Of a DNA stretch of 64,000 bases, positions 1,812 to 62,412 are shown one piece after another. The position numbers and the translations under genes were made by a program. Numbering within the stretch: position 1 is the stretch's first letter; each line of letters begins with the position of its first letter. The notes beneath the pieces were generated by a model. The model saw only the letters and a list, made by a program, of their open reading frames with translations. It made no database searches and was not told where the DNA came from. Source of the stretch: Bacteroidaceae bacterium (lineage in GTDB: Bacteria > Bacteroidota > Bacteroidia > Bacteroidales > Bacteroidaceae); assembly GCA_017548075.1 (NCBI GenBank), contig JAFYNL010000043.1, forward strand, positions 1 through 64,000. The letters run 5' to 3'.

Positions 1812-1966
1812 AAAACTACCTACAGGTAATTCCTCAAAGACCTTAAGGTAAATCGCTTGAGACCTTAAGGTAATTCCCAAACGACACACGTGAAGTTGGC
1901 AAACGTAACACGTTAAAATTGCAAACGACACTAGTGAAGTTTGGCAACGACACTGGGGTTGTTTTC
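1812..1966. repeat. 22-bp dyad repeat array A (7 units)
   Basis: Seven 10-bp cores start at 1818, 1840, 1862, 1884, 1906, 1928 and 1950, exactly 22 bp apart. They read ACCTACAGGT, ACCTTAAGGT (twice), ACACACGTGA, TAACACGTTA, ACACTAGTGA and ACACTGGGGT. The 12-bp linkers resemble AAATTGCAAACG. This array has the most varied cores in the window. It lies upstream of the sulfatase gene, between divergent genes. Confidence 0.9.
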
Positions 1967-1989
1967 TTGGATGCTTTTTTGCGTCGTAG

Positions 1990-2020
1990 TTGTGTATGTG
2001 GAAAAAGTTTTGTAAATTTG
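1990..2020 (+). promoter_or_regulatory. promoter of the sulfatase operon
   Basis: TTG at 1990-1992, a 20-base gap, then TAAATTTG at 2013-2020 fits the Bacteroidetes -33/-7 promoter. The ATG at 2025 starts only 4 bases after the box, so the transcript would be leaderless or nearly so unless translation starts at the next ATG (2052). Confidence 0.65.
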
Positions 2021-2024
2021 CAGC

Positions 2025-3602
2025 ATGAAACACTTTGTTCGCTTTGGGGCGATGGCTTCGGCCTTGCTGCCCATAATCCCGACTGCTGCTAAGACAACGA
2101 AGGGAAATCCTTCTGTCGATAACCGTCAGCAGCCTAATGTGATTGTCATCTTTGCCGATGATCTGGGCTATGGTGACCTCGAGTGCTTTGGAGCCACAAG
2201 AGTGCAGACTCCGAACGTTAACGCGTTGGCACAGAGTGGCATACGCTTTACGAATGTTCACGCGATTGCTGCCACGAGTACACCTTCTCGCTATGGTCTT
2301 TTGACTGGTGAGTACGCTTTCCGCCACCCAAATACGGATATTGCTCGAGGTAATGCGGGGATGATTATCAGGCCTGAGCAGTTCACGATTGCTGATGCCT
2401 TCAAGAACGCTGGCTATGCGACGGCTGCTATCGGAAAATGGCATCTGGGTTTGGGCGACAAGGATGCCGAGCAAGATTGGAACGCTCAACTGCCTATGCA
2501 TCCTGGCGACATCGGGTTCGACTACCATTATATCATGGCAGCGACAGCTGACCGAACTCCTTGTGTCTTCATAGAGCAAGGGCATGTGGCGAACTATGAC
2601 GAGACGGCTCCGATACTGGTCAGCTACGAGGAGAACTTCCCTGGAGAGCCGACGGGAAAGGAGAATCCGGAGCTTCTCTACAACCTGAAGGCCAGTCACG
2701 GCCACAATCAGAGTATTGTGAACGGCATTGGCCGAATCGGTTATATGAAGGGCGGCGGAAAGGCCCTCTGGAAGGACGAGAACATAGCCGACAGCATAGC
2801 GGCTCACGCAATTGGCTTCATCCAGAAACACCAGCAGGAGCCCTTCTTCATGTACCTCGCCACGAACGATGTGCATGTACCTCGATTCCCTCATGAACGC
2901 TTCCGTGGGAAGAATCCGATGGGCTTCAGAGGTGATGCGATTGCTCAGTTCGACTGGACTGTTGGGCAAGTTCTCAAGGAGTTGGAACGCTTGGGTTTGA
3001 GGCAGAACACCTTGATTGTGCTGAGCAGCGACAACGGTCCTGTGGTGGACGACGGCTATCAAGACAAGGCAGTCGAACTGCTTGGCGACCACAAGCCTGC
3101 AGGTCCGTATAGAGCAGGAAAGTACAGTACTTTCGAAGGCGGCACGATTGTTCCTGCGATTGTATCTTGGCCGAAGCGGATAGAGGCAGGTCAGGAGTCG
3201 GATGCTCTTGTGTCGCAGATTGACTGGCTGGCTTCGTTGAGTGCTCTCGTGGGTGCTCGCATCCCAAAAGGTGGCGCGATAGACAGTCAGAATCGGCTCA
3301 GCACGCTTCTTGGCGAGAACAAGGAAGACCGTCCTTATGTCTTGGAACAGGCTGCAAATCATGCACTCTCGGTTCGAACGAAGGAGTGGAAATACATCTC
3401 TCCAAGCCAAGGTCCAGCCGTCATTTCAGGTCCGAATATGGAGAGCGGATACAGTCGTGAGCCTCAACTCTACAACATGCAAGAGCCTTTCGAGCAAGCG
3501 AATGTGGCCCTCGAGAATCCTCAAGTTGTGTTCCAAATGCAGTCGTATATAGAAAAGGAACGCGCGAAAGGCTCCAGTTATACTTCGCCAATTTCAAAAT
3601 AA
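2025..3602 (+). CDS. secreted arylsulfatase-type sulfatase (S1 family), serine-type
   Basis: A 525-residue sulfatase that should hydrolyse sulfate esters on a glycan in the periplasm. A short signal-like N-terminus (1-22) precedes the alkaline-phosphatase-fold domain. Metal-binding FADDLGYGD is at residues 43-51, the nucleophile motif S-T-P-S-R at 85-89, and a second metal site at SSDNGP. Because the modified residue is Ser, activity would need an anSME-type maturase to make formylglycine; none lies in this window. The start keeps the basic residues of the signal peptide. It is followed 6 bases later by a GH16 enzyme, which suggests joint attack on a sulfated polysaccharide. The substrate cannot be told from the sequence. 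Confidence 0.92.
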   Translation: MKHFVRFGAMASALLPIIPTAAKTTKGNPSVDNRQQPNVIVIFADDLGYGDLECFGATRVQTPNVNALAQSGIRFTNVHAIAATSTPSRYGLLTGEYAFRHPNTDIARGNAGMIIRPEQFTIADAFKNAGYATAAIGKWHLGLGDKDAEQDWNAQLPMHPGDIGFDYHYIMAATADRTPCVFIEQGHVANYDETAPILVSYEENFPGEPTGKENPELLYNLKASHGHNQSIVNGIGRIGYMKGGGKALWKDENIADSIAAHAIGFIQKHQQEPFFMYLATNDVHVPRFPHERFRGKNPMGFRGDAIAQFDWTVGQVLKELERLGLRQNTLIVLSSDNGPVVDDGYQDKAVELLGDHKPAGPYRAGKYSTFEGGTIVPAIVSWPKRIEAGQESDALVSQIDWLASLSALVGARIPKGGAIDSQNRLSTLLGENKEDRPYVLEQAANHALSVRTKEWKYISPSQGPAVISGPNMESGYSREPQLYNMQEPFEQANVALENPQVVFQMQSYIEKERAKGSSYTSPISK

Positions 3603-3608
3603 AAGACT

Positions 3609-4490
3609 ATGATGAAGACCAGATATCTTACCTTATTTCTGCTTGTTGCAGTTTGCTTTGGTTCTTCCGATGTGTTAGCAAAGGGGAAGAAGCGTGCCGC
3701 GTGCATCAACGTCTCGAAGAAAGAGATGAAGAAAGCACTGAAGAAAGCGTCGAAATCCAAAGCTTCTATACAACGCGAAGGCTGGGAACTTGTGTGGCAC
3801 GACGAGTTCGACGGGAAGAAACTCTCAGACGATTGGACGCGAATCCCTCGCTTTCCCAACCCTCCTGAGTGGAACAAATTCATGAGCACACACGACAGGC
3901 TCTATAAGGTGAAAGGCGGTGTGCTCACGCTCTACGGCCTCGTGAACGACTTCCTGCCAGAAGATACGGCTCACGTTCTGACTGGTGGCGTCTATTCTCG
4001 CGGCAAAGTGCTCTTCCAGAGAGGCAGGATAGACATTCGTTTGAAGATGGACGATGCCTCTGGAGCCTGGCCTGCAGCTTGGCTTTTGCCTGAAGGACAA
4101 TGGCCTTTCGGAGGTGAAATCGACATTATGGAAAGGCTGAATTATGACGATTTTGCGCATCAGACCATTCATTCGGCACATACCGAGTACGAGAAAGAAA
4201 AGCGAAAGACTCAGGATTGGCATGCCACGGCACCCATCAAGAAAGGCGATTGGAACGTCTATAGCGTTGAGCTTTACGAAGATAGCGTCAGTTTCATCAT
4301 CAACGACAAACTGACTTTCACCTATCGGAAAGAGCCTCAACATGGGCCTCAACAGTTTCCATACGACCGTCCGATGTACCTCTTGCTCGATATGCAGCTG
4401 GGAGGTCATTGGGTTGGGCAAGTCAAGCCTGAAGAGTTACCCTATCGCTACCAGATAGATTACGTGCGTTTCTACAAGAAAAAGGATTAG
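3609..4490 (+). CDS. secreted glycoside hydrolase family 16 endo-glucanase-type enzyme
   Basis: A 293-residue protein with a signal peptide (about 1-24), a Lys/Ala-rich stretch (about 35-52), then a GH16 beta-sandwich from WELVWHDEFDG (59-69). The catalytic motif is E170-I-D-I-M-E175, the ExDxxE form with the extra residue typical of laminarinase-like GH16 enzymes. It retains beta-glycosidic bonds by a double displacement. Possible substrates are beta-1,3(4)-glucans or galactans. It starts 6 bases after the sulfatase stop, so the two are co-transcribed. An in-frame ATG follows immediately at 3612. No SusC/SusD pair is nearby, so this is not a full polysaccharide utilisation locus. Confidence 0.92.
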   Translation: MMKTRYLTLFLLVAVCFGSSDVLAKGKKRAACINVSKKEMKKALKKASKSKASIQREGWELVWHDEFDGKKLSDDWTRIPRFPNPPEWNKFMSTHDRLYKVKGGVLTLYGLVNDFLPEDTAHVLTGGVYSRGKVLFQRGRIDIRLKMDDASGAWPAAWLLPEGQWPFGGEIDIMERLNYDDFAHQTIHSAHTEYEKEKRKTQDWHATAPIKKGDWNVYSVELYEDSVSFIINDKLTFTYRKEPQHGPQQFPYDRPMYLLLDMQLGGHWVGQVKPEELPYRYQIDYVRFYKKKD

Positions 4491-4516
4491 GGATTAGAAG
4501 ATTAGAGATTAGGAAT
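4486..4516 (+). repeat. short GATTAG tandem words
   Basis: The GH16 stop codon and the gap before the next gene are built of GATTAG/GATTAGG words in near-tandem (GATTAGGGATTAG, GATTAGAGATTAGG). The same words occur in the same sense relative to transcription between punA and thiL (14675-14702). Confidence 0.6.
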
Positions 4517-4526
4517 TGGTTGCTAT

Positions 4527-5201
4527 ATGAAGGTGAGATTGATGACAATTCTGGCTTTGGTGCTTGTTTCGGCCTTTTGCTTTGCCCAAAAGAGCAAGAC
4601 GGCTCAGCAGATGGAAAAGCAAGGATTGGTGGATATAATGTCCGTCGATTCTACCATTCAAGTGAGTCTGATGTACAGCCGAGCAGACAATTTTACTGGC
4701 AAAGTGCTCTATACCGACCTTCGCGAAGCGTACCTCCACCCCAAAGCCGCAACCGCTCTTGCAAAGGCGCAACAGGCTCTCAAGAAACTCAGGCCGGAAC
4801 TCAGTCTGAAAGTCTATGATGCGACTCGGCCCATGAGTGTTCAACAGAAGATGTGGAACACGGTTGCGGGCACGAAGAAGAGCATTTATGTGAGCAATCC
4901 TCGCAATGGCGGAGGCATGCATAACTACGGTCTGGCCGTCGATATCACGCTTTGCAACGCACTTTCAGGTGACACCCTCGATATGGGAACCAAGGTGGAT
5001 TTCCTGGGTTCTTATGCTCATATTGATAACGAAGCTGGGCTCGTCAGTCAACACATCATTTCGAAAGAGGCGAAGAAGAACCGTGAATTGCTCCGAAAAG
5101 TGATGACTGAAGCAGGTTTCAAGCCTTTGAGGACAGAGTGGTGGCACTTCAACCTTGTTTCGAGAGCAGAGGCCAAAGCACACTATAAAGCAGTCAGGTA
5201 G
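4527..5201 (+). CDS. D-alanyl-D-alanine dipeptidase, VanX/DdpX-like (peptidase M15D)
   Basis: A 224-residue secreted zinc peptidase. A signal peptide (about 1-20) precedes the M15 fold. The family metal and catalytic residues are visible: MHNYGLAVD supplies H132 and D139, and EWWHFN supplies E204 and H207. The conserved Arg of DATRP (98-102) is present. The family cleaves D-Ala-D-Ala dipeptide, for recycling in most non-resistant bacteria. No vanH/vanA-like genes lie nearby, so a resistance role is unlikely. The gap from the GH16 gene is 36 bases. A 22-bp repeat array begins right after its stop codon. Confidence 0.9.
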   Translation: MKVRLMTILALVLVSAFCFAQKSKTAQQMEKQGLVDIMSVDSTIQVSLMYSRADNFTGKVLYTDLREAYLHPKAATALAKAQQALKKLRPELSLKVYDATRPMSVQQKMWNTVAGTKKSIYVSNPRNGGGMHNYGLAVDITLCNALSGDTLDMGTKVDFLGSYAHIDNEAGLVSQHIISKEAKKNRELLRKVMTEAGFKPLRTEWWHFNLVSRAEAKAHYKAVR

Positions 5202-5306
5202 AAAACGTAACGTAGTTAAAATGCAAACGTAACACGTTAAAATCGCAAACGTAACGTGTTATGATTGCCAACGTAACACGTTAACTTTGGCAACTTAACT
5301 GGGAGC
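5202..5306. repeat. 22-bp dyad repeat array B (5 units)
   Basis: Cores start at 5208, 5230, 5252, 5274 and 5296, exactly 22 bp apart: TAACGTAGTTA, TAACACGTTA, TAACGTGTTA, TAACACGTTA and a terminal TAACTGGGAG. It fills the whole gap between two convergent genes, starting one base after one stop codon and ending just before the other. Confidence 0.92.
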
Positions 5307-5307
5307 A

Positions 5308-6630: not shown

Positions 6631-6642
6631 AACGGAACAGAA

Positions 6643-7548: not shown

Positions 7549-7557
7549 TGTTCCGTG

Positions 7558-9315: not shown

Positions 9316-9715
9316 CTCTTTCGGTATCGGAAAGGACTTCTACAGGCTCCCATTCTGCTTGTTCATGACGAGCGATAATCATCTGAGCAATACGCTCTCC
9401 GTCGGCAATAAGGAAAGGTTCGTTCGAGAGATTAACTAAGATGACACACACTTCACCACGATAATCGGCATCGATTGTGCCGGGAGTGTTGAGCACAGTA
9501 ATGCCGTGCTTTATAGCCAAACCACTTCGAGGGCGAACTTGTGCCTCGTAGCCTGGAGGCAAAGCCATAAAGAGACCTGTAGGAATAAGGCGTCGTTCCA
9601 TCGGTCTTAACTCAATTGGAGACTCGATATTGGCTCGAAGATCTACTCCTGCAGACTGCGGCGTTGCATATTGCGGAAGTGGATGATGACTGCGATTAAT
9701 TATCTGAACTTTCAT
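9281..9715 (-). CDS. dut: dUTP diphosphatase
   Basis: A 144-residue trimeric dUTPase that converts dUTP to dUMP and PPi, keeping uracil out of DNA and feeding thymidylate synthesis. The motifs are in order: motif 1 AGVDLRA (22-28), motif 2 RPRSGLA, motif 3 [10 protein letters not shown] (uracil pocket), motif 4 near GERIAQ, and C-terminal motif 5 [12 protein letters not shown]. Length is normal. It follows dgt by 26 bases and overlaps the TPR gene. Both dgt and dut shape nucleotide pools. Confidence 0.97.
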
Positions 9716-9741
9716 ATACTTTGGGGTTTATGTCTAAAATG

Positions 9742-13473: not shown

Positions 13474-13584
13474 CGAACGACTGCAGGGTTGTTGCCAAAG
13501 ATAACACGTTAACTTTGCAAAGTTAACGTGTTATGATTGCAAACTTAACCTGTTACGTTTGCGATTTAACTGTGTTATGTTTTC
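13474..13584. repeat. 22-bp dyad repeat array C (5 units) with a perfect 34-bp palindrome
   Basis: Cores start at 13480 (ACTGCAGGGT), 13502 (TAACACGTTA), 13524 (TAACGTGTTA), 13546 (TAACCTGTTA) and 13567 (TAACTGTGTTA). Bases 13501-13534 are a perfect 34-bp inverted repeat centred on TTTGCAAA. The array lies just after the thiL stop. The rest of the 13352-13605 gap holds only the promoter of the next operon. Confidence 0.9.
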
Positions 13585-13605
13585 GAGGGCTTCTCTTTCC
13601 TCGAA

Positions 13606-14667
13606 CTAAAGCTTCCAGCCTTGAGCCTTGAGAACGAATTCTCCTCCGTCTCTTGTAATGAGAGCCTGACCCTTTTCCGGCTCAGTCATATAGCCGATTA
13701 CACGAATGTCTTCGAGGGCCGAAACTGCATCATTCTGGGCGAGAGGAACGGTGAAGAGCAGCTCGTAATCTTCTCCTCCATTCAGGGCACAAGTACTGAC
13801 ATTCAGGTTCAACTCTTCGGCCATAGCCGCAGTCTGATAGTCGAGTGGAATTCTCTCTTCATAAATGCGGCAACCAGTCTGGCTTTGCTTGCAGAGATGC
13901 ATAACCTCGCTACTCAATCCGTCACTTATATCTATCATACTTGTCGGATGAATTCCAGCCTTTTGAAGCGCTTCGACGATGTCTCCTCTTGCCTCAGGTT
14001 TAAGTTGACGCTCTAGTATGTACTCTCTTCCGCTAAAGTCGGGTTGCGATTCGCGCAAAGCCTCCATCTGTTCCTTGCTGCCACTCTTTCTGGCTTCCTC
14101 AACTTGCTCGTTATAGATGACCTTTTCCCGCTCCAAAAGTTGCAAGCCCATATAAGCCGCACCCAAGTTTCCGCTAACACAGATAAGGTCTGTCGGCTTT
14201 GCTCCACTTCGCAGAACCAGATCCTCGCTTCGAGCCTCTCCTATTGCCGTAATACTGATGCCGAGTCCAGTCAGGCTGGCAGTCGTATCTCCACCAACAA
14301 TATCAACACCCCACTTCTCACAAGCCAAACGCATTCCAGCATAGATTTCTTCTATGTCTTCAACCTTGAACTTATTGCTAATAGCGAGGCTTACGGTCAC
14401 TTGTTTCGGCTTGGCATTCATCGCGAAGATGTCGCTCAGATTCACCATAACTGCCTTATAACCAAGATGTCGCAAGGGAACATAGGTGAGATCAAAGTGA
14501 ACGCCTTCCATCAAAAGGTCGGTTGTGACTACAGTTCGCAAGCCTTCTGTCGGAGCAAGAATAGCACAATCGTCACCAATACCCTTGATGGTGGATTCGT
14601 TCTTTATGGTAATGTCTTTTGCGAGGCGTTCTATGAGGCCAAACTCGCCCAGTTCTGATATCTCCAT
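13606..14667 (-). CDS. thiL: thiamine-monophosphate kinase
   Basis: A 353-residue ThiL that phosphorylates thiamine monophosphate to the active cofactor thiamine diphosphate. The PurM-like N-terminal domain shows GIGDDCAIL (30-38) and TTDLLMEGVHFDL; WGVDIVGGDTT and the C-terminal MIDISDGLSSE and NGGEDYELLF motifs bind ATP and metal. Length is normal. It is the last gene of the sppA-lpxK-punA-thiL operon, 32 bases after punA. Confidence 0.96.
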   Translation of the reverse strand: MEISELGEFGLIERLAKDITIKNESTIKGIGDDCAILAPTEGLRTVVTTDLLMEGVHFDLTYVPLRHLGYKAVMVNLSDIFAMNAKPKQVTVSLAISNKFKVEDIEEIYAGMRLACEKWGVDIVGGDTTASLTGLGISITAIGEARSEDLVLRSGAKPTDLICVSGNLGAAYMGLQLLEREKVIYNEQVEEARKSGSKEQMEALRESQPDFSGREYILERQLKPEARGDIVEALQKAGIHPTSMIDISDGLSSEVMHLCKQSQTGCRIYEERIPLDYQTAAMAEELNLNVSTCALNGGEDYELLFTVPLAQNDAVSALEDIRVIGYMTEPEKGQALITRDGGEFVLKAQGWKL

Positions 14668-18413: not shown

Positions 18414-18467
18414 GCGATTCTTTGCCACATACACAAGGTTTTTGCAAAAAAAAGGCAGTTGCGTCGC

Positions 18468-18600
18468 AAAACTACTCCAGTTAAGTTCCCAAACGACTGC
18501 AGTTACGTTGGCAAAGTTAACCTGTTACGTTGGCGATTTTAACGAGTTAAGTTTGCAAAGTTAACGTGTTATGATTGCAATCGTAACTGGGGTTGTTTTC
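18468..18600. repeat. 22-bp dyad repeat array D (6 units)
   Basis: Cores are exactly 22 bp apart at 18474 (ACTCCAGTTA), 18496 (ACTGCAGTTA), 18518 (TAACCTGTTA), 18540 (TAACGAGTTA), 18562 (TAACGTGTTA) and 18584 (TAACTGGGGT). The outer units keep only the inward half-site (GTTA on the left end, TAAC on the right end). It lies between the flippase-like gene's 3' end and the sppA promoter. Confidence 0.93.
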
Positions 18601-18609
18601 AATCACACC

Positions 18610-19593
18610 TTAATTAGTCTTGCTTTTCCTCAAGGCAAGGGCTACGGAAGACCACACTCCAAGCAACGCAACTAGCAGAGTCTGAAGGGTATGGACTATG
18701 AGAACAAAGAGTGCGGCATCAGTTTGACCGACTCCATAAAGCACCAAAACTGTCTTGACTGCAAAGTGCCAAGAACCTGCACCATTAGGTGTGGGCACCA
18801 ATACGGCGAAACTGCCGACCACAAAGGCAACGAGAGCAGCAAGAGGTCCAAGTCCTGCAGTAAAGTCGAAACAGAAGAAAGTCAGGTAGAAATGCAGGAA
18901 ATAGCTCACCCAAATGCCTATCGAATAGATCCAGAAAAGCAAAGGATTCTGCACTTCTCTAACGGAAAGAAGGCCGTTTTTCAAGTCCGAAACGACTGAT
19001 TTGGTCTTCGAAAAGATGCGGAAACGTCTGGCTACAAGCACGATACAAATAAGGGCAAGAAGTCCGCAAACTGCCGTCACAAGCCATCCTGTAAGCGAAA
19101 ACTTACCCAAAAGACCACTCATAGAAACTCCCGTCTCTTGGAAGAAGTCCAAAAAGACTGGGATTTGAGTCAGGAAAGCCAGAACAGAAAGTACCAATAT
19201 AAGTAATGTATCGATAATTCTTTCCGTTACAACTGTACCCACACTCAGGGTGAAATTGGTTCCCTCGTAACGCCGCAAAACCCCGCAGCGAAGGACTTCG
19301 CCCACTCTTGGCACAACAAGACTGCTGGCATAACTGAGGAAGATTGCATGCGTGCAAGTAGAAAGTCTTGGTTTTTCGCCAGTTGGAGCCAGAACTTGCC
19401 TCCATCTCATAGCTCGCAAAACTTGGGCCAAGATTCCGAAAGGCATGCTCAGAAGCATCCAAGTCCACGACATTTTGTGCGAAAGAGCGTCCACAAGTTC
19501 CTCCCATCGAATGCCTCGATACATCCACCAAAGTATTCCTACAGCCAAAGCTAAAGGCACACCTATCTTGATTATTTTCCTTACTCTTTGCAC
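18610..19593 (-). CDS. flippase-like (lysylphosphatidylglycerol synthase TM-type, UPF0104) membrane protein
   Basis: A polytopic membrane protein of the LPG_synthase_TM/AglD-like family with about eight hydrophobic segments. PFGILAQVLRAMRW and YASSLVVPRVGEVLRCG are typical family motifs. The role is probably lipid or glycolipid handling in the inner membrane; no substrate can be named. I place the start at the GTG at 19593 (327 residues). The more upstream ATG at 19638 lies inside this gene's own -7 box (19628-19635) and would not be transcribed. It is divergent from ksgA. Confidence 0.82.
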   Translation of the reverse strand: MQRVRKIIKIGVPLALAVGILWWMYRGIRWEELVDALSHKMSWTWMLLSMPFGILAQVLRAMRWRQVLAPTGEKPRLSTCTHAIFLSYASSLVVPRVGEVLRCGVLRRYEGTNFTLSVGTVVTERIIDTLLILVLSVLAFLTQIPVFLDFFQETGVSMSGLLGKFSLTGWLVTAVCGLLALICIVLVARRFRIFSKTKSVVSDLKNGLLSVREVQNPLLFWIYSIGIWVSYFLHFYLTFFCFDFTAGLGPLAALVAFVVGSFAVLVPTPNGAGSWHFAVKTVLVLYGVGQTDAALFVLIVHTLQTLLVALLGVWSSVALALRKSKTN

Positions 19594-22447: not shown

Positions 22448-22598
22448 CTGACTTCGCTAGAGTCGTTTTCAAACGACTGCAGTTACGTTGGCAAAGTTAA
22501 CGTGTTACGTTTGCAATTTTAACGTGTTAAGTTTGCAAAGTTAACGTGTTACGTTTGCAATCGTAACTAGGGTTGTTTACAAACTTAACTGGCCTCAA
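22448..22598. repeat. 22-bp dyad repeat array E (6 units, possibly 7)
   Basis: Cores are exactly 22 bp apart at 22476 (ACTGCAGTTA), 22498, 22520 and 22542 (TAACGTGTTA each), 22564 (TAACTAGGGT) and 22586 (TAACTGGCCT). A worn unit may sit at 22454. It fills the gap between the convergent fbp and pssA. Confidence 0.93.
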
Positions 22599-30094: not shown

Positions 30095-30244
30095 GAAACA
30101 ACCCCAGTTACGATGCCAAACGTAACACGTTAACTTTGCAATCGTAACACGTTAAGATCGCCAACGTAACACGTTAAGTTTGGATTTTAACCACGTTAAC
30201 TTTTAAAAGCAAGCACGCTTAGTTTTTCTGCTAGGCGTGCTCTC
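30095..30244. repeat. 22-bp dyad repeat array F (7 units), ending in a terminator-like hairpin
   Basis: Cores are exactly 22 bp apart at 30101 (ACCCCAGTTA), 30123, 30145 and 30167 (TAACACGTTA each), 30189 (AACCACGTTA), 30211 (AAGCACGCTT) and 30233 (AGGCGTGCTC). The array lies in the opposite orientation to most others. The last two cores pair as a hairpin but stay in the 22-bp register. It fills the gap between convergent genes. Confidence 0.92.
30212..30241. terminator. hairpin, possible bidirectional terminator
   Basis: AGCACGCTTAG at 30212-30222 pairs with CTAGGCGTGCT at 30231-30241 (one G-T pair) around TTTTTCTG. It sits between the ends of cysS and the DUF4294 gene. U-tracts are weak on both sides, so termination is plausible but unproven. 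Confidence 0.5.
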
Positions 30245-36364: not shown

Positions 36365-36372
36365 TACTTTTG
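36365..36372 (+). promoter_or_regulatory. -7 promoter box of mnmG
   Basis: TACTTTTG matches TAnnTTTG, 27 bases before the ATG at 36400. The longer reading from a TTG at 36370 would start inside the box. The -33 element is weak. Confidence 0.6.
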
Positions 36373-36399
36373 TACCTAAATAAACGTGCGAAAGAGCAG

Positions 36400-38322
36400 A
36401 TGGAGCTTAAATTCGATGTCGTAGTAGTTGGTGCTGGGCATGCTGGATGCGAGGCTGCAACAGCCGCAGCAAAGCTTGGAGCAAAGACTTGTCTCATTAC
36501 GATGGACATGAACAAGATTGCGCAAATGTCGTGCAATCCTGCCATCGGTGGCATAGCTAAAGGCCAGATTGTCAGGGAGATAGACGCTCTTGGAGGTCAT
36601 ACAGGCGAGGTTACAGATGCAACTGCCATTCAGTTTCGAATGCTGAACCGTTCGAAAGGACCTGCTATGTGGAGTCCCAGAGCACAATGTGACAGAGGAA
36701 AATTCATTTGGGCTTGGCGAGAAGCTCTTGAGAACACACCCAACCTTTCCATCTGGCAAGATCAAGTCGTAGAACTACTCACGGATAAAACCCAAACTTC
36801 ACACGTGAACTTTGCCAACGACACACGTGAACTTTGCCAACTTCACGTGTGTGGTTTGCGAACTATGCTGGGAGTGATTTTCAAGGCACCTTGCGTCATC
36901 ATTACAGCAGGCACTTTCCTCAATGGTTTGATGCATATCGGACGAACCCAGATTCCTGGAGGTCGTTGTGCAGAACTTCCAAGCCTGCATCTCTCAGAAA
37001 GTATCGCAGCTTGCGGCATTACTGTAGGCCGCATGAAGACTGGCACTCCTGTTCGTATTGATGGACGTTCTGTCGACTTCTCTTTGATGCAGGAACAAGA
37101 AGGAGAACAAGATTTTCACAAGTTCTCGTATATGGGCGAGCCTCGTCAGTTGCCACAGTTGCCTTGCTGGATTACCTATACGAATGAGGCTGTTCATGAG
37201 CGTTTGCGTGCTGCCCTACCCGATTCTCCGCTCTATAATGGGCAGATTCAAAGCATAGGTCCGCGTTATTGTCCGAGTATCGAAACTAAACTCGTCACTT
37301 TCTCGGAACGCTCTGAGCATCAGCTATTTCTGGAACCAGAAGGTACTTCGACGAATGAATATTACCTGAACGGCTTCTCGAGTTCGCTCCCTATCGAAGC
37401 TCAAATTGAGGCTTTGAAACTGATTCCTGCATTCCGCAACCTGCAAGTTTATCGTCCTGGCTATGCTATCGAGTACGATTACTTTGACCCAACGCAGCTT
37501 CGACACTCGTTGGAATCGAAGATTGTAGAGGGTCTGTTTATGGCTGGACAAGTGAATGGAACGACTGGTTACGAGGAAGCTGCAGGACAAGGACTCGTTG
37601 CTGGCGTTAATGCGGCTCGCAAACTTGCTGGACAAGAGCCGTTTGTGATGCGAAGGGATGAATCCTACATTGGTGTTTTGATTGACGATCTCGTGACGAA
37701 AGGTGTGGATGAACCCTACAGAATGTTCACTTCAAGGGCCGAATATCGCATCCTTCTTCGTCAAGATGATGCAGATGCACGACTTACAGAACGAAGCTAC
37801 GAAATGGGTTTAGCCTCTCGAGAACGATACGATCATTGGCTACGTAAGAAGCAGGAAATCAATGAGATAGAAGAGTTTTGCAACTCTTATAGCGTGAAAG
37901 CCGCATATATAAACAAAGGACTGAAAGCTTTGGGAAGCGAGGAACTACAGAGAGGCTGCAAACTTATTGACCTCGTAATGCGTCCACAACTCACTCTCTC
38001 CAATCTCGCACCTCTCATCCCTGCCCTATCCAACAAGTTGAATAGTATAAAGGATCGTCGCGAGGAAATCATCGAGGCTGCTGAAGTTCGCATGAAATAT
38101 AGCGGTTACATCCGTCGAGAAAAAGAGATTGCAGAGAAGATTCAACGCCTCGAGAACATTCGCATCAAGGGACGCTTCAATTACGAGGACATTCAATCGC
38201 TCAGCACAGAAGCTCGCCAAAAGCTTGCTAAAATAGACCCGGAGACGATGGCACAAGCCAGTCGTATTCCAGGAGTTAGTCCTAGCGACATAAATGTCTT
38301 GTTGGTGATGATGAATCGATAA
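36400..38322 (+). CDS. mnmG: tRNA uridine 5-carboxymethylaminomethyl modification enzyme MnmG, with an in-frame repeat insertion
   Basis: A 640-residue FAD enzyme that, with MnmE, modifies the wobble uridine of several tRNAs. Seen: N-terminal FAD motif VVVGAGHAGCEAA, NPAIGGIAKGQIVREIDALGG, and TGYEEAAGQGLVAGVNA, followed by a helical C-terminal domain. The start is set by the -7 box at 36365. Oddity: residues about 131-154 are encoded by three 22-bp repeat units (36793-36859). They replace the short hairpin found between the VEDL and VTQMG segments of other MnmG proteins and add roughly 18-20 residues. Flanking conserved motifs are intact, so the enzyme is probably active. A parS-like site overlaps its stop codon. 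Confidence 0.96.
   Translation: MELKFDVVVVGAGHAGCEAATAAAKLGAKTCLITMDMNKIAQMSCNPAIGGIAKGQIVREIDALGGHTGEVTDATAIQFRMLNRSKGPAMWSPRAQCDRGKFIWAWREALENTPNLSIWQDQVVELLTDKTQTSHVNFANDTRELCQLHVCGLRTMLGVIFKAPCVIITAGTFLNGLMHIGRTQIPGGRCAELPSLHLSESIAACGITVGRMKTGTPVRIDGRSVDFSLMQEQEGEQDFHKFSYMGEPRQLPQLPCWITYTNEAVHERLRAALPDSPLYNGQIQSIGPRYCPSIETKLVTFSERSEHQLFLEPEGTSTNEYYLNGFSSSLPIEAQIEALKLIPAFRNLQVYRPGYAIEYDYFDPTQLRHSLESKIVEGLFMAGQVNGTTGYEEAAGQGLVAGVNAARKLAGQEPFVMRRDESYIGVLIDDLVTKGVDEPYRMFTSRAEYRILLRQDDADARLTERSYEMGLASRERYDHWLRKKQEINEIEEFCNSYSVKAAYINKGLKALGSEELQRGCKLIDLVMRPQLTLSNLAPLIPALSNKLNSIKDRREEIIEAAEVRMKYSGYIRREKEIAEKIQRLENIRIKGRFNYEDIQSLSTEARQKLAKIDPETMAQASRIPGVSPSDINVLLVMMNR
36793..36859. repeat. 22-bp dyad repeat array G (3 units) inside mnmG
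   Basis: Cores at 36799 (TCACACGTGA), 36821 (ACACACGTGA) and 36843 (TCACGTGTGT) are exactly 22 bp apart with linkers like ACTTTGCCAACG. Three units are 66 bp, or 22 codons, so the frame is kept. These cores lack the TAA stop that the commoner TAACNNGTTA core would bring in one frame. The second and third cores can form a hairpin. Confidence 0.9.
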
Positions 38323-38904: not shown

Positions 38905-38989
38905 AAAACATGCCACGTTATGATTGCCATCATAACACGTTACAAATGCAATCGTAACACGTTATGTTTGTCATCGTAACAGCAGACAT
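38905..38989. repeat. 22-bp dyad repeat array H (4 units)
   Basis: Cores are exactly 22 bp apart at 38911 (TGCCACGTTA), 38933 (TAACACGTTA), 38955 (TAACACGTTA) and 38977 (TAACAGCAGA). The array fills the gap between apt and uvrC on the same strand and ends 6 bases before the uvrC ATG, so it would be the uvrC leader or ribosome-binding region. Confidence 0.88.
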
Positions 38990-43722: not shown

Positions 43723-43895
43723 CAGAGACCTTGTAGGTTGTTTTCAAACGACTGCAGAGTCGTTGGCGAATGACTGCAGTTACGTTGGCAAAGTTAACGT
43801 GTTATGATTGCAAACTTAACTCGTTACGATTGCCAACGTAACTGCAGTCGTTTGGAAAGTTAACTAGGGTTCTTTTCAAAGTTAACTAGAGTAGG
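43723..43895. repeat. 22-bp dyad repeat array I (8 units, longest)
   Basis: Cores at 43728 (ACCTTGTAGGT), 43751 (ACTGCAGAGT), 43773 (ACTGCAGTTA), 43795 (TAACGTGTTA), 43817 (TAACTCGTTA), 43839 (TAACTGCAGT), 43861 (TAACTAGGGT) and 43883 (TAACTAGAGT). All steps are 22 bp except the first (23). The mix of whole and chimeric cores shows half-sites as the exchangeable parts. It lies between the OmpA gene and the S41 protease promoter. Confidence 0.92.
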
Positions 43896-53209: not shown

Positions 53210-53217
53210 CAAATTTA
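53210..53217 (-). promoter_or_regulatory. -7 promoter box of ispB-gluQ
   Basis: TAAATTTG on the minus strand, 19 bases before the ispB ATG. On the plus strand, TAATTTTA at 53250-53257 is a possible weak box for polA. Confidence 0.6.
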
Positions 53218-53279
53218 CATAAAAAAGTGCTTCTTTCATATTTTTTCCGTAATTTTACCTCATAAAAGGACAGAAAAAG

Positions 53280-55784: not shown

Positions 55785-55791
55785 TCGTTTT

Positions 55792-55920
55792 GAAACGACC
55801 TTAGTTAAGTTGGCAAACGACTGCAGTTACGTTGGCAAAGTTAACGTGTTATGATTGCAAACTTAACTCGTTACGATTGCAATCATAACTGGGGTTGTTT
55901 GGAAACTACCTTAAGGTTGG
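55792..55920. repeat. 22-bp dyad repeat array J (6 units)
   Basis: Cores are exactly 22 bp apart at 55798 (ACCTTAGTTA, a chimera of the ACCT and GTTA half-sites), 55820 (ACTGCAGTTA), 55842 (TAACGTGTTA), 55864 (TAACTCGTTA), 55886 (TAACTGGGGT) and 55908 (ACCTTAAGGT). It fills the gap between the convergent polA and antiporter genes. Confidence 0.93.
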
Positions 55921-55939
55921 TTGAAAAGTTCACCAAAAC

Positions 55940-58186: not shown

Positions 58187-58189
58187 AAA

Positions 58190-59170: not shown

Positions 59171-59607
59171 CTTTATATTATTATATTCTTATTATATTTT
59201 AAAATTTAAATACTTTAATGATGATGATTATATAAGGTGGATAAGTGTATAACTTTTACCCCATTTCATCGAGAATTTAGTTATGAACACTCTTTCCACA
59301 CTTTAACTTTATTTGTTCACCATTTTATATTCTTTTCTTCTTCTTAATTTATAAGCAGATACCTCACTTTATGCAGTATAGTTATCCACAAATATTAATA
59401 ACATGCAAAGTTAATAATTTTCCTTGATATGCTGGCTTGATAACTCCAAATTTTTGCGTTGAAATTGCTTTTATAACTTTTAATGAATGTGAATAAAGGG
59501 GAGTAAGGCATCAAATTACACACATTAGAGTGAATAAGTAGAGGTTTATCAACCAAGTTATACACATAAATTGTTAACTTTGTCCACGAAAAGAAAGTCT
59601 TCATAAC
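59171..59607. other. candidate chromosomal replication origin (oriC): A+T-rich element plus DnaA-box cluster
   Basis: A 437-bp gene-free gap. Bases 59172-59235 are almost only A and T and could be the unwinding element. DnaA boxes: TTATCCACA at 59382-59390 (exact consensus), TTATACACA at 59558-59566, complement-strand TTATCCACC at 59236-59244 and TTATACACT at 59244-59252, and weaker ones near 59281, 59292, 59516, 59546 and 59580. By hand count the plus strand turns G-rich in the gene to the right (G 62, C 33 over 59641-59880), against about equal in polA on the left. The rRNA at the left edge is transcribed away from this point. dnaA itself is not in the window. Confidence 0.7.
59575..59582 (+). 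promoter_or_regulatory. -7 promoter box of the TrmH-like gene
   Basis: TAACTTTG matches TAnnTTTG, 25 bases before the ATG at 59608. It overlaps a weak DnaA box (TTGTCCACG, 59580-59588), so DnaA could affect this gene. Confidence 0.6.
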
Positions 59608-60132
59608 ATGAGAAAGTTGAAAGTTACAGAGATGGGCCGAATGAGTGTGGCTGAGTTCAGGGACTCGAAAAAGCAGCCTATTGTAGTCGTTTTGGATCAT
59701 GTTAGAAGTCTTTACAATGTAGGAAGTGTGTTTCGTAGTAGTGATGCTTTTCGAATTGAAGGTGTCTTTCTTTGTGGAATAACTGCCAGACCTCCTCATC
59801 CTGAAATACATAAAACTGCTTTAGGAGCAGAAGAAAGTGTTCCTTGGAAGTATTTTGAGAAGACTGAAGATGCAGTTAGTTTGCTTAAGGAAGAGGGTTA
59901 TACTGTTCTTGCAGTTGAGCAATGTGAGGGCAGTACTATGCTTCAGAACTTTCAAAGACAACCTGACAGGAAGTATGCAATTGTGTTAGGTAACGAAGTT
60001 AAAGGCGTTCAACAACAGATTGTAGACAGTTGTGACGGTTGTCTTGAAATTCCCCAGTTTGGAACGAAACACAGTTTGAATGTGAGTGTTGCTGCTGGAA
60101 TAGTTCTTTGGCACTTATCGAGAAAAGAGTAA
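59608..60132 (+). CDS. SpoU/TrmH-family RNA 2'-O-methyltransferase
   Basis: A 174-residue SPOUT methyltransferase. The knotted SAM site is seen in LDHVRSLYNVGSVFRSSDAF (motif 1), IVLGNEVKGVQQQIVDSCD (motif 2) and IPQFGTKHSLNVSVAAGI (motif 3). The family methylates ribose in tRNA or rRNA; the short form without an N-terminal RNA-binding domain leaves the target open. Its plus strand is noticeably richer in G than C. First gene to the right of the candidate origin. Confidence 0.92.
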   Translation: MRKLKVTEMGRMSVAEFRDSKKQPIVVVLDHVRSLYNVGSVFRSSDAFRIEGVFLCGITARPPHPEIHKTALGAEESVPWKYFEKTEDAVSLLKEEGYTVLAVEQCEGSTMLQNFQRQPDRKYAIVLGNEVKGVQQQIVDSCDGCLEIPQFGTKHSLNVSVAAGIVLWHLSRKE

Positions 60133-60148
60133 TTCTGTGGTATGTTGA

Positions 60149-60236
60149 AGAACTAAGCGTGCCTACTTAATGAATTAGACACGCCTAGTTTGACAATTAA
60201 ACGTGCTTAGTTGGCTGATTAAGCACGCTTAATTTA
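60149..60236. repeat. 22-bp dyad repeat array L (4 units, AAGCACGCTT type)
   Basis: Cores at 60155 (AAGCGTGCCT), 60177 (AGACACGCCT), 60199 (AAACGTGCTT) and 60221 (AAGCACGCTT) are exactly 22 bp apart. The linkers (such as AGTTGGCTGATT) differ from the other arrays, but period and layout are the same. AAGCACGCTT is identical to the core at 30211 in array F. Units 3 and 4 can pair as a hairpin (CGTGCTTA with TAAGCACG). It lies between convergent genes. Confidence 0.85.
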
Positions 60237-60237
60237 T

Positions 60238-60816
60238 TTACTTCCTTATTCCGTTGATGAGGAACTTCTTAGCTTCTTCTCTTGAATCCTTAGCCTTGGT
60301 GATTTCGCTCTGAGTTTGTGCGTGCTCATCCTTCAAGTTTGCCATATTGGTTTGAGTGCTCTCAATCTCTTGGCGAACGTTTTCAAGTTTCTGTTGAGCC
60401 TTTTGAAGATTCTGTTCTGCCTTAGCTACACTCTGTTCAGCCTTAGTGGCTTTCGACTGAAGCTTCGAGAGTTTATCGCCAGCTTTACTGGATTTGTTCT
60501 GCAATTTAACTGACTTGCTCTGAGCTTTTGCCAGAGAGGATTCACCTTTCTTCTCAAGTGCAGCAGCTTTCTTAGCGACCTTGAGGTTTGCCTGAGCCTT
60601 TTTCAGTTCCTCAGCTTTTTTGCTGATTTCTGACTTTGTTACTGTGCTTGCATCCAGTTTTGCCTTTTGCTTCAAGGTGTTGAGCTCGCCTTTAAGGGTT
60701 GCAGCCTCTACTTCGAATTCGTTCTTCCACTGTTCGCAAGTCTTGCCGTCATTCAGCGTTTGAGCCATTACAGGCATCGAGATGGCTATAGCCACCATTG
60801 CTAAAATCTTTTTCAT
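60238..60816 (-). CDS. secreted Lys/Ala-rich coiled-coil protein
   Basis: A 192-residue protein with a signal peptide (about 1-18, ending VMAQ). Almost all of the rest (about 30-180) is a predicted coiled coil rich in Lys, Ala, Glu and Gln. I recognise no family beyond general periplasmic coiled-coil proteins. It is downstream of dacB (gap of 51 bases) and probably co-transcribed, which hints at an envelope role. Confidence 0.75.
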   Translation of the reverse strand: MKKILAMVAIAISMPVMAQTLNDGKTCEQWKNEFEVEAATLKGELNTLKQKAKLDASTVTKSEISKKAEELKKAQANLKVAKKAAALEKKGESSLAKAQSKSVKLQNKSSKAGDKLSKLQSKATKAEQSVAKAEQNLQKAQQKLENVRQEIESTQTNMANLKDEHAQTQSEITKAKDSREEAKKFLINGIRK

Positions 60817-60867
60817 AATGTTTGAATTTTATAAGTTAAAGAGTTAAATAGTTAGTTGTTACATTAT

Positions 60868-62199
60868 TTATTTGCAGAGTTCTATGCATACTTTGTCTTG
60901 GAAAGAACGTCCTATTCCTGATGAACTTACGCCTTGATTGATGATGGCAAAGGCGAGAGTGTGTCCGTTAGCTGCAGTTATGTAGCCTGCAAGCGAGGTA
61001 ATTCCAGTCACAGTACCAGTTTTTGCTCTCACATTTCCATCGGCTTCTGTCCCAATCATGCGGTTTTTCAGGGTTCCGTCGAAACCTGCAATAGGCAAGG
61101 ATGGCAAGAGATGTTCCTTGATATCGGGTGTTCTCCAAGCATATCCAAGAAGCGCCACAAGCATTTCAGCCGAGACATAATCGTAGAGAGAAAGTCCACT
61201 TCCATCTGCAACTTTGTAGGGACTTGGGTCTATACCTATTTTATTATTAAGGAGTTCTTCAGTTCTTTGAGCTGCTTCTTTTCGGCCTGCAAACTTCTTT
61301 CCTGTAGAGGCTGCAGTCTGATAGAACAAGCATTCGGCATAGATATTGTCGCTATTCTTCATCATCGGCTCTAGAAGTTCGTCTATTTCATGATGGATGA
61401 CGCAAGCCGTTCGAGCCTGTCTGTCTGCTTGAGACCTATTGATTGAGGTGGAACGAAGTTGAATGCCAGCTCCTTCAAGAGCCGAGAGCCATTCTTGCTC
61501 GAAGTTGTCCTTTCCGTTTACAAGCAGAGCGGAGAGAGGTCCGTAGTCATCATCCCAGCACCAACCCCAGCCTAATGGCTTGTCTTCGCGCATCGAAAGG
61601 TCGAAGACGACATTTCCTGCAACAGTTTCTATACCTTGATTCTGCTTGATGGTATAAGCCGCTTGCAACAGTTCGTCTGAAGTTACTAGCGGATCCATTC
61701 CGCCAACCACAATCAGGTCGCCTTCCAAAACTCCATTCCTCACCTTTCCTGAGATGCGGAACTCAGTCCGAAGCTGGTAGTTTCCTTTGAGATAGTGAAG
61801 AGCTGTGATAGCCGTAACAAGCTTCTGGCACGAGGCTGGACGCATTCTGTGGGCTGCGTTTACGGCATACAAAGGCTCTCCATCAGTCAAATCATACACA
61901 TAAAGTCCGAGTTGAGTGGTCTCGAAAAGCGAAGACTGACAAAGCAGGTCGAGGGCTTGTTGCTTGGCTGCTTGCCAGCTTCCTTCAGGAGCTCGACGCA
62001 CTTGGGAAACCAAAGGCCGAGCACTCACCACAGGTTCCTCAGCCTCAGACTCTTCCTCTTCGACTACAACAACTGGTTGCTCCACAACTGCAGGCTGGGC
62101 AGGTTGACTGTCAGCCTGATGGCCGTAATACTGAGAAAAGCGTTTCGATGCACACGAACTCAGCAGCAGTAAAAGAAGAAGATACTTTGTGTATTTCAT
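60868..62199 (-). CDS. dacB: D-alanyl-D-alanine carboxypeptidase/endopeptidase (PBP4-type, S13), lipoprotein
   Basis: A 443-residue penicillin-binding protein that cuts the terminal D-Ala or the cross-link of peptidoglycan. The signal ends in lipobox LSSCAS (Cys about 16), followed by a Pro/Val/Glu-rich tether (about 30-60). Catalytic motifs: SxxK in RPASCQKLV, SxN in KNSDNIYAE, and KTG in RAKTGTVTG. The domain between SxxK and SxN seems shorter than in E. coli PBP4, as in other Bacteroidetes. A TAACTTTG box with a TTG element 19 bases upstream drives it. Confidence 0.94.
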   Translation of the reverse strand: MKYTKYLLLLLLLSSCASKRFSQYYGHQADSQPAQPAVVEQPVVVVEEEESEAEEPVVSARPLVSQVRRAPEGSWQAAKQQALDLLCQSSLFETTQLGLYVYDLTDGEPLYAVNAAHRMRPASCQKLVTAITALHYLKGNYQLRTEFRISGKVRNGVLEGDLIVVGGMDPLVTSDELLQAAYTIKQNQGIETVAGNVVFDLSMREDKPLGWGWCWDDDYGPLSALLVNGKDNFEQEWLSALEGAGIQLRSTSINRSQADRQARTACVIHHEIDELLEPMMKNSDNIYAECLFYQTAASTGKKFAGRKEAAQRTEELLNNKIGIDPSPYKVADGSGLSLYDYVSAEMLVALLGYAWRTPDIKEHLLPSLPIAGFDGTLKNRMIGTEADGNVRAKTGTVTGITSLAGYITAANGHTLAFAIINQGVSSSGIGRSFQDKVCIELCK

Positions 62200-62221
62200 T
62201 CAAACTTGATATTTACGAATG

Positions 62222-62251
62222 CAAAGTTACAAATAAGTGCGAGAACTACAA
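62222..62251 (-). promoter_or_regulatory. promoter of dacB
   Basis: On the minus strand TAACTTTG (complement of 62222-62229) follows a TTG element after 19 bases. The ATG lies 22 bases downstream. Confidence 0.7.
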
Positions 62252-62283
62252 AAGAAAAGAGTAACTTTCTTTTGTTATGTTGA

Positions 62284-62412
62284 AAAACGACCTCAGTTAC
62301 GTTGCCAAACATAACACGTTAACTTTGCCAACTTAACACGTTAAAAACGCAAACGTAACACGTTAACTTTGCAATCGTAACTGGGGTTGTTTGGAAACGC
62401 CTCCAGTTCCGT
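62284..62412. repeat. 22-bp dyad repeat array K (6 units)
   Basis: Cores are exactly 22 bp apart at 62290 (ACCTCAGTTA), 62312, 62334 and 62356 (TAACACGTTA each), 62378 (TAACTGGGGT) and 62400 (CCTCCAGTTC). It lies between the divergent dacB and the Cthe_2159-like gene, upstream of both promoters. The rest of the 62200-62537 gap holds only those promoters. Confidence 0.92.

Follow-up and report, generated by a model that had tools for sequence, protein, structure and literature searches.

Palindromic 22-bp arrays in lineage-specific dialects point to a possible undescribed system for marking or organising the chromosome

Tandem arrays with a period of 22 bp are scattered along the chromosomes of a Bacteroidaceae bacterium (genome G000) and of its close relatives (G005, G011, G012, G019, G023, G026, G034, and G035), and their conserved feature is the 22-bp period and its dyad symmetry, not their sequence. 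The palindromic 22-bp arrays of the relatives are spelled differently, in what are here termed dialects, and many of the array addresses are probably old, as their sharing between genomes suggests. Such arrays suggest a chromosome-marking or chromosome-organising system not described so far. They are tentatively explained as tiled sites for a putative, co-evolving dimeric DNA-binding protein serving such a system, a reading whose probability falls somewhat short of even.

Period and dyad symmetry

The window, a 64-kb stretch of G000, the genome of a rumen bacterium, was scanned for self-match at a lag of 22 bp with no motif used, which returned 12 arrays (Table 1) at the same places where the first-pass annotation had described a dispersed repeat family. 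Among the other lags from 13 to 45, one array appeared at lag 21 and 8 at lag 44, a multiple of 22, and all the rest gave 0. The annotation had counted approximately 67 units in these arrays; their summed length corresponds to approximately 58.5. Its gene context agrees with that found here, with five arrays in convergent gaps, two in divergent gaps, one intragenic, and the rest at gene ends, these last being four arrays in codirectional gaps directly past a stop codon. The array at 60.2 kb is spelled otherwise than most, and ACCT..AGGT and TCAC..GTGA arms are present in the 1.8-kb and 36.8-kb arrays.

Table 1. Period-22 arrays of the window and the gene that contains one of them.
Position	Strand	Units	Feature	Evidence
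1818..1964	.	~6.7	array, divergent gap; ACCTTAAGGT and CACACGTG among its spellings	lag-22 score 30.4
5203..5299	.	4.4	array, convergent gap, TAAC dialect	lag-22 score 31.0
13496..13586	.	4.1	array, past stop of thiL (13606-14667, -)	lag-22 score 27.2
18444..18604	.	7.3	array, past stop of flippase-like gene (18610-19524, -)	lag-22 score 40.0
22482..22590	.	5.0	array, convergent gap, TAAC dialect, capped by CTGCAG and TAGGG	lag-22 score 45.2
30117..30226	.	5.0	array, convergent gap after cysS	lag-22 score 28.6
36370..38322	+		mnmG, array translated in frame	TIGR00136; length comparison
36795..36864	.	3.2	array, in frame inside mnmG	lag-22 score 26.0
38909..38981	.	3.3	array, apt/uvrC gap	lag-22 score 22.4
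43737..43892	.	7.1	array, precedes prc-type peptidase; outer units CTGCAG, inner TAAC	lag-22 score 37.2
55793..55890	.	4.5	array, convergent gap after polA	lag-22 score 29.8
60145..60234	.	4.1	array, convergent gap, AAGC..GCTT arms	lag-22 score 15.2
62296..62381	.	3.9	array, divergent gap, TAAC dialect; CCTCAG and CTGGGG caps just outside	lag-22 score 26.6

The strict 22-bp register that had been claimed for the window holds in a G000 sample of 41 stretches (736,070 bases, 5,475 of them N), in which 115 of 120 core-to-core distances, counted inside clusters of cores that have one mismatch or none, are exactly 22. Searching the whole of G000 for the core spaced by 22 bp, the check that the annotation had proposed, yielded 323 exact TAACNNGTTA-N12-TAACNNGTTA pairs, against 0 for a reversed-pattern control. 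The sample contains 74 arrays across 736 kb. The genome total is estimated at approximately 270 tandem arrays, and their density at about one per 6 kb. No array occurs in a 20-kb stretch that carries defence and relaxase genes, nor in another of 14.7 kb (L044), where three genes were checked, including those for a peptidase and a ROK-family protein, and none is mobile.

The lag-22 scan found 70 arrays in G000, 77 in close relatives, 10 in far congeners, and 0 in 11 stretches from other families. Spread across the family was judged from one 20-kb stretch per genome. Only the multiples 44 and 66 join lag 22 in standing out; the remaining lags between 13 and 35 yielded 0-6 arrays. The unit consensuses are palindromic at 7.3 of 11 pairs, compared with 5.4 in shuffles.

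Dialects and shared addresses

That 7 of 61 genomes contain TAACNNGTTA pairs had suggested a species-specific repeat defined by a single motif, a view dropped once motif-free scans revealed other spellings in the relatives; the annotation's description by this motif stands for most G000 arrays and fails for those of the relatives. Dialects are nearly exclusive between genomes: G026 has 0 TAAC pairs, the type counted 323 times in G000, and 418 CCGC-type pairs, of which G000 has 0. Several dialects lie side by side in some genomes (G005 and G034), and the G026 dialect was met as a foreign array in contig 116 of G035. A CACG centre recurs between differing arms, in 16 of 67 cores and 9 of 25 genomes compared with 2.2% in shuffles, the cores having been selected for inverted arms, and is almost missing from G023 and G011. 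Single-motif searches miss families of this kind, and every species then seems to own an unrelated repeat.

The clearest shared address lies within a gene. All nine close genomes carry an in-frame array in mnmG, in seven spellings, and its codon position is the same in all eight close relatives; mnmG of G000 is here 51 bp longer than the 105-bp form that prevails among distant congeners, and none of the 20 distant congeners readable at this place has an array. After cysS, otherwise-spelled arrays are found in five of the eight close relatives (G005, G011, G019, G023, and G035). The sister species G011 and G023 have all 10 compared arrays in common, with no gain or loss, and comparison of the window with the eight relatives gave 13 shared cases, 6 confined to G000, 0 confined to a relative, and 25 with an array in neither. 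The notion that arrays are always the fastest-diverging intergenic DNA was not borne out.

Spacing and gene context

When six genomes were tested singly, arrays were spaced more evenly than expected from random choice of gaps in five of them (G000, G023, G026, G011, and G035), the exception being G005, with a coefficient of variation (CV) of 0.86 against a null of 0.69. Neighbours closer than 2 kb number 0 of 40 in G000 (null 6.0) and 3 of 69 in the relatives (null 17.6), which when pooled are only mildly even by CV (0.67 compared with 0.80, 81 of 2000).

The location at gene ends described in the first-pass annotation extends to the G000 sample, where convergent gaps hold 22 arrays against 11.0 expected and 33 of 36 codirectional arrays lie closer to the upstream stop, a bias that is weak in the relatives (23 of 35, p 0.09). 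Divergent gaps hold 13 of the 74 arrays. There are approximately 0.6 arrays per convergent gap of at least 60 bp, so many such gaps are without one. In G000, arrays favour neither strand with respect to genes (14 and 15). They rarely enter genes: 1 of the 74 sampled arrays is intragenic, and with mnmG set aside, called genes contain just 2 of the 151 arrays of G000 and the eight relatives.

A putative DNA-binding protein and its alternatives

The array would be a row of contiguous 22-bp sites for a putative dimeric (or oligomerising) host DNA-binding protein, each core (an arm, a 2-bp centre, and an inverted arm) taking one dimer and adjacent dimers tiling gaplessly on nearly the same helix face. 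Placed every 4.5-6 kb or so, mostly just past genes, such arrays could mark or insulate the chromosome, their most likely role being to set topological or loop boundaries where transcription units end. In G000, 2-5 such sites would make up an array, and a distinctive cap unit is frequently present at one of its ends. The specificity of the protein is proposed to drift, with the arms of hundreds of arrays following in place, so that each lineage would come to have its own dialect and yet keep the period, the dyad, and many addresses. Of the three roles that the annotation had offered, the binding array, for which a protein is predicted, is favoured because the arrays combine a fixed 22-bp palindromic tile with lineage-specific arms, even spacing in five of the six genomes tested singly, and, in G000, no strand bias; RNA hairpins are weakened, and a mobile repeat is possible.

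The mobile repeat, combined with target immunity, is the main rival. Here the arrays would be palindromic, non-autonomous elements of approximately 110 bp (a cap, about three units, and a cap), moved by a putative enzyme and evenly spaced through target immunity, with new dialects arriving, spreading, and converting or nesting into old arrays. Copies in the hundreds, dialects that are nearly exclusive save for an occasional foreign array, as in G035, and an array sitting inside mnmG all suit this account; transposition immunity predicts even spacing equally well. Cap units that point outward, with an outer arm of GGGT or CAGT, were recognised at 55 of 130 array ends and might represent terminal inverted repeats. 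It is nonetheless unlikely, since the Y1/RAYT transposase has 0 matches in G000 (an assembly 88% complete, so that one gene may have been missed), the addresses appear old in mnmG and in the sister species, and unrelated sequences at exactly period 22 would require many independent elements with one period.

Improbable, too, is a role at the RNA level, by which the arrays would act as bidirectional terminators or stabilisers of 3' ends, folding as rods or rows of hairpins. This would account for the gene-end bias, and in six genomes the folding of sampled arrays surpasses that of dinucleotide shuffles (mean z from -2.6 to -5.2), with a modest outward T bias at array ends. It is weakened by the lack of strand bias, by the arrays in divergent gaps, and by array ends that are uncoupled. 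A recognised cap stands on at least one end in 38 of 65 arrays and on both in 15, left and right caps are no better matched than chance (9.89 compared with 10.04 ± 0.34), and the in-register signal is lost by the third outer unit. Nor is there support for a long-range RNA hairpin between the left and right caps, which are uncoupled within an array. As RNA, the G000 arms would be AU-rich 4-bp stems with a 2-nt centre between them, and there is no preference for half-linkers that are identical and pair perfectly (0 observed against 2.4 expected in oriented arrays, P 0.07). The account does not predict the even spacing, and the stop-proximal bias is weak in the relatives. An avoidance of perfectly palindromic linkers (2 against 8.4 expected unoriented) is only suggestive, being weaker once arrays are oriented.

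The DNA uptake sequences (DUS) of Neisseriaceae, as described in one account, likewise form genome-wide dialects with a conserved core (CTG), together with inverted pairs linked to terminators, 'peregrine' copies, counts in thousands per genome, and common intragenic copies (PMC3630211). They are, as far as that account goes, short words rather than tandem period-22 arrays, of which the sampled 736 kb hold 74. That the arrays tag self-DNA for a DUS- or USS-like receptor for uptake or exchange, biased uptake driving concerted change across the genome, is suggested by a likeness to DUS in the dialects, recurring core, even spacing, gene-end location, occasional foreign arrays, and one array-free stretch carrying defence and relaxase genes. 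It is very improbable given their estimated number in the hundreds and their rarity in genes; among uptake signals, none is known to us to take the form of a period-22 tandem array.

Under the binding-protein reading, the predicted dialect-reading protein should be findable by pull-down or co-evolution, the arrays would offer a candidate explanation of chromosome partitioning in Bacteroidaceae, and the seven spellings at one mnmG codon position would serve as natural replicates for joint change of a specificity and hundreds of sites. Eukaryotic centromere satellites conserve period and address as their sequence is turned over, and to our knowledge no bacterial case of this combination has been described. 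The wider interpretation, that the arrays are a bacterial counterpart of satellite DNA, is conceivable at clearly less than an even chance; it would make them a family-wide system of chromosomal addressing, in which palindromic tiles of exactly 22 bp stay at old, evenly spaced gene-end addresses and have their sequence changed genome-wide between dialects in step with a putative fast-evolving, chromosome-organising DNA-binding protein.

Relation to known repeats and proteins

REP/BIME elements are described as high-copy extragenic palindromes in alternating orientation, species-specific and dynamic, which may serve in termination and in organising the chromosome (PMC2817692). The G000 arrays resemble them as palindromes in high copy outside genes and differ in their gapless 22-bp tiling and in the lack of any RAYT match or REP tag, GTAG and CGTC occurring at 0.04 and 0.06 per unit in the 74 arrays, compared with 0.68 for CACG; an identity with RAYT/REP was accordingly rejected for G000. 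Across the relatives, many spellings with one period and shared addresses with other sequence add to the difference. Y1_Tnp lies above cut-off in 11 of 41 genomes of the genus, including the close relatives G012, G026, and G034.

Within Bacteroidales, BrickBuilt of Porphyromonas gingivalis is presented as a MITE minisatellite of intergenic 23-nt tandem direct repeats, with 19 elements in one strain, a leader and tail, terminal repeats near those of IS5-family elements, and one sequence family (PMC4596501). The present arrays share the intergenic tandem repeats, whereas a leader, a tail, and 23-nt direct repeats were not found and the period is exactly 22. PINSR of Prevotella intermedia and P. 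nigrescens, described as a single 188-bp consensus, is intergenic, numbers 177 copies in one strain and 184 in another, and has no terminal inverted repeats; approximately three quarters of its regions are shared between strains, and most strain-specific regions are without it (PMC4755523). Compared by this description rather than by sequence, PINSR may be a member of the period-22 arrays.

Two further comparisons concern reading frame and tiling. Rickettsia palindromic elements are single palindromes read in frame within protein genes, as the mnmG array is, and are not period-22 arrays. Plasmid iterons and ParR centromeres consist of tandem repeats of approximately 20-22 bp tiled by dimers, with one or few per replicon, whereas the period-22 arrays number hundreds along the chromosome. 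We know of no described family that fits period-22 dialect arrays, and none was found in the open PMC literature, subscription papers and figures lying outside the search.

Rfam gave 0 matches above gathering thresholds in the window, and no binding protein for the arrays was found. ParB was represented by one PF02195 match in each of the nine close genomes, all of them incomplete (62-89%), and as it is single-copy in all nine no Noc-like paralogue was seen. Viral contigs carry the pairs as well: 15 have the TAAC pair, a lag-22 array being present in 5 of these, and 2 have the CCGC pair.

Array structure in the parent genome

The 22-bp arrays of the parent genome, G000, and its relatives are constant in period and dyad and variable in their letters, lie in both orientations relative to genes and occupy spaced addresses. 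A motif-free self-match of the window at a 22-bp lag returned 12 arrays with about 58.5 units in total, at the same 12 places where the first-pass annotation had reported period-22 arrays, and Tandem Repeats Finder gave the same period; among the other lags from 13 to 45, arrays appeared only at lag 21 (one) and at the multiple 44 (eight). Gene calls made in this analysis place five arrays in convergent gaps, four in codirectional gaps after a stop codon, two in divergent gaps and one inside a gene, matching the convergent, divergent and intragenic counts of the annotation, and the flanking genes (NCBIfam) include thiL, cysS, mnmG, apt, uvrC, a prc-type peptidase gene and polA. The 22-bp spacing claimed for the family also holds genome-wide, with 323 exact core pairs in the whole G000 assembly (66 contigs, 88% complete) vs none in the control, and 115 of 120 core-to-core distances within clusters exactly 22 bp in 41 stretches. 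These stretches amount to about 28% of the genome (736,070 bases, including 5,475 Ns), and their density of 74 arrays in 736 kb leads to an estimate of about 270 arrays in the entire genome.

Each unit joins a 10-bp core, in which a 2-bp centre separates a 4-bp arm from its inverted counterpart, to a 12-bp linker that divides into two 6-bp half-linkers. The core centre is AC/GT in 150 of 181 exact G000 cores, and the half-linker vocabulary is small (ACTTTG, CGATTG, AGTTTG, TGATTG, CGTTGG and others). Two or more exact cores are present in 65 G000 arrays; these contain 2-5 in-register units, and 38 of them contain three. A cap, or special end unit, is recognised at one end or more in 38 of the 65 and at both ends in 15, with no excess of left/right cap matching over chance. 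The outer arm is GGGT or CAGT in 55 of the 130 units flanking these arrays, which are then frequently spelled TAAC-TG-GGGT or TAAC-TG-CAGT; the outward half-linker is T-rich, and by the third outer unit the register is already gone. The CTGCAG of G000 caps is the core of arrays seen in two relatives, G005 and G023, and the array edges may preserve an old dialect (a lineage-specific core and arm spelling on the unchanged period) around a newer interior. The 30.1-kb array has at its edge an extra hairpin, AAGCACGCTTAG...CTAGGCGTGCT, that is similar to the minor dialect of the 60.2-kb array.

Constancy of the period and change of dialect

The exact motif is almost confined to G000: it occurs in 7 of 61 genomes, with at most 14 pairs in any genome but G000, and a 24-base piece of it is also present in two named records, both yak-rumen Bacteroidaceae MAGs. 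The 22-bp period is not confined in this way. Motif-free scans returned 77 arrays at lag 22 in 12 stretches (516 kb) of the eight close congeners, where the remaining lags between 13 and 35 gave 0-6, and 10 in 20 stretches (400 kb) of other congeners, with 0-4 at other lags. At a slightly lower score cut, lag-22 arrays were found in each of four further congener stretches from three genomes. In the family's other genera, sampled through one 20-kb stretch from each of 16 members, seven members had them, with 10 arrays, not all palindromic-looking; the runner-up below lag 42 was lag 21, with three. Other families of the order yielded no lag-22 arrays in 11 stretches (171 kb). One stretch from such a family, L162 of genome G054, carries period-23 tandem repeats, CTCACAAGTTTGTCAGTTTTTAC, which may reflect a related phenomenon that differs in period.

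The main dialect of G026, CCGCACGCGG, forms 418 pairs there (at most one mismatch), none in G000 and 0-7 in six others. The main dialect is of the GGTTAACC type in G011 and G023, of the TCACGTG type in G035 and CCCTATAGGG in G005, and is mixed in G034. In G072, which belongs to a different genus, a type of its own, AAACA-N4-TGTTT, gives 292 matches (at most two mismatches) vs 2 in the control, and arrays on G072 contig 1 combine two core types, AAACAATATTGTTT and AAACACTTGTGTTT. One G035 array is written in the G026 dialect, unlike the main dialect of its host, and may be a foreign array that arrived by horizontal transfer. Across 173 arrays the unit consensus has 7.3 of 11 palindromic pairs vs 5.4 in shuffles. 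Among 67 non-redundant cores, all selected for having three or more inverted flanking pairs, 16 have the centre CACG, vs 2.2% in shuffles treated alike, and these 16 come from 9 of 25 genomes; its arms are AAC/GTT, CAC/GTG, GAC/GTC, CTC/GAG, CGC/GCG or GGC/GCC, and it is almost missing from G023 and G011.

Shared addresses and array divergence

Orthologous gaps of at least 60 bp, compared between the window and the eight relatives, held arrays in both genomes in 13 cases, in G000 only in six, in the relative only in none and in neither in 25 (Fisher, 5e-7), or 13, 5, 0 and 12 without divergent gaps (p 9e-5), the pairs being non-independent through the relatives' common ancestry. In the gaps compared between the sister species G023 and G011 (95% identity), 10 of 10 arrays are present in both, and ten pairings among relatives (two in both directions) gave 24 shared, 12 unshared and 75 neither.

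The mnmG gene was taken from 30 of 41 genus genomes. In each of the nine close genomes it contains a lag-22 array, always at one shared codon position and with the frame open, which exceeds the 105-bp form by 51, 72 or 96 bp; among the other 21 genomes, none of the 20 with the anchor has an array there. The array is spelled TTCACACGTGAA in G000, TTCACTGCAGAA in G011 and G023, CGCCGCACGCGGCG in G026, TATCACACGTGATA in G035, the G005 main-dialect spelling in G005 and G034, TTTCTCACACGAGAGAAA in G019 and TTACCTCACGAGGTAA in G012, with TCACACGTGA common to G000 and G035. An additional 75-100 bp interrupts the MnmG match near codon 260 in several of the distant congeners, a position that may be a second insertion-taking site. 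Arrays follow cysS in G000 and five of eight close relatives, in several spellings, with none in G026 or G012 and only 146 bp covered in G034; none occurs in the 17 distant congeners with the anchor, and outside these, G024 and G021 have arrays 12-70 and ~130-220 bp past cysS. G012 (L102) carries CTAGA-based repeats at the position that the 22-bp array takes in other species.

Fourteen between-dialect comparisons cover 100 or more array sites. In these, the share of aligned sites that differ is 18-38% in arrays vs 13-26% in array-free intergenic DNA, and indels per 100 bp number 6-13 vs 1.6-6.3. Arrays are the most diverged class for substitutions in 11 and for indels in 12; between G000 and G023 they are the least substituted class. 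Between the sister species, array divergence is 10.9% vs 10.3% and 9.4% elsewhere, with fewer indels in arrays. On the compared contig, 11 of 14 G011 arrays align in one piece, several with entire half-linkers swapped in register; array 8504 has large indels.

Spacing and placement along the chromosome

Spacing was compared with random picks among real gaps of at least 90 bp, gap classes being weighted by observed use. The median distance between arrays is 6.0 kb in G000, 4.5 in G023 and G011, 5.8 in G026, 4.6 in G035, 6.9 in G005 and 5.2 in G034. The coefficient of variation (CV) in G000 is 0.45 vs 0.68, as even in 0 of 2000 simulations, and 0 of 40 neighbours lie less than 2 kb apart vs 6.0 ± 1.8. 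Even spacing recurs in G023 (0.33 vs 0.67; 0/2000), G026 (0.34 vs 0.73; 0/2000), G011 (0.35 vs 0.56; 20/2000) and G035 (0.28 vs 0.68; 11/2000), and is absent in G005 (0.86 vs 0.69). The pooled relatives have a CV of 0.67 vs 0.80 (81/2000), with 3 of 69 neighbours below 2 kb vs 17.6 ± 2.6 (0/2000).

By length, G000 convergent gaps are enriched (22 arrays vs 11.0 expected) and divergent gaps depleted (13 vs 20.9), and in codirectional gaps the array is closer to the upstream stop in 33 of 36. The relatives keep the convergent enrichment (17 vs 8.3) and show a weak stop bias (23/35, p 0.09); 10 of their arrays lie within called genes, eight of them in mnmG. Neither G000 (14 vs 15) nor G026 (3 vs 4) shows a bias in array orientation relative to genes; the counts in G023 are 6 vs 1 (p 0.125). 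The 20-kb stretch L035 contains no arrays; it has a G+C of 0.43 and EH_Signature, SNF2-helicase, Schlafen-type AlbA_2 and relaxase genes, and appears to be an acquired island, of defence or mobile type, with a likeness to Zorya (ZorC, ZorD). The 14.7-kb L044 also has none, and none of three genes checked there is mobile.

Coordinates of individual features
Feature	Location	Position
Extra mnmG insert, split MnmG match	G013, C28	80451-80542
Extra mnmG insert, split MnmG match	G021, C78	39580-39659
Extra mnmG insert, split MnmG match	G016, C3	89094-89170
Extra hairpin at array edge	window	~30190-30240
Other short tandem repeat	window	4485
Other short tandem repeat	window	14676
Array in G026 dialect	G035, contig 116	1454-1529
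Period-23 repeat	L162	8231-8298
Period-23 repeat	L162	9647-9736
Array-free stretch L035	G000, contig 6	1-20000

Possible function and relation to known repeats

In the favoured reading a homodimer would tile the array without gaps, one 22-bp site per dimer, which would account for the period, the symmetric arms and the absence of strand bias, and drift in the specificity of this putative protein would produce genome-wide dialects. Since the arrays are spaced and placed at gene ends, boundary or anchoring work on the chromosome is suggested; we infer the protein, its binding to the arrays and the boundary role alike. The strongest alternative is a mobile repeat subject to target immunity. A role at the RNA level has real folding behind it (six genomes sampled, mean z from -2.6 to -5.2), but RNA structure accounts for neither array spacing nor orientation, and a DNA-uptake tag is less likely.

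No Rfam match was found in the window, and no second ParB in the nine close genomes (assemblies 62-89% complete). A REP/RAYT system is ruled out by the tests made, because G000 yielded neither a Y1_Tnp gene nor a REP tag at its arrays. BrickBuilt of Porphyromonas gingivalis is unlike the arrays in period and anatomy (PMC4596501). PINSR of Prevotella intermedia/nigrescens resembles them in placement and copy number, compared by description (PMC4755523), and could be a member of the family. Other short intergenic tandem repeats, with periods of 7, 9, 14 and 15, are common in the genus.
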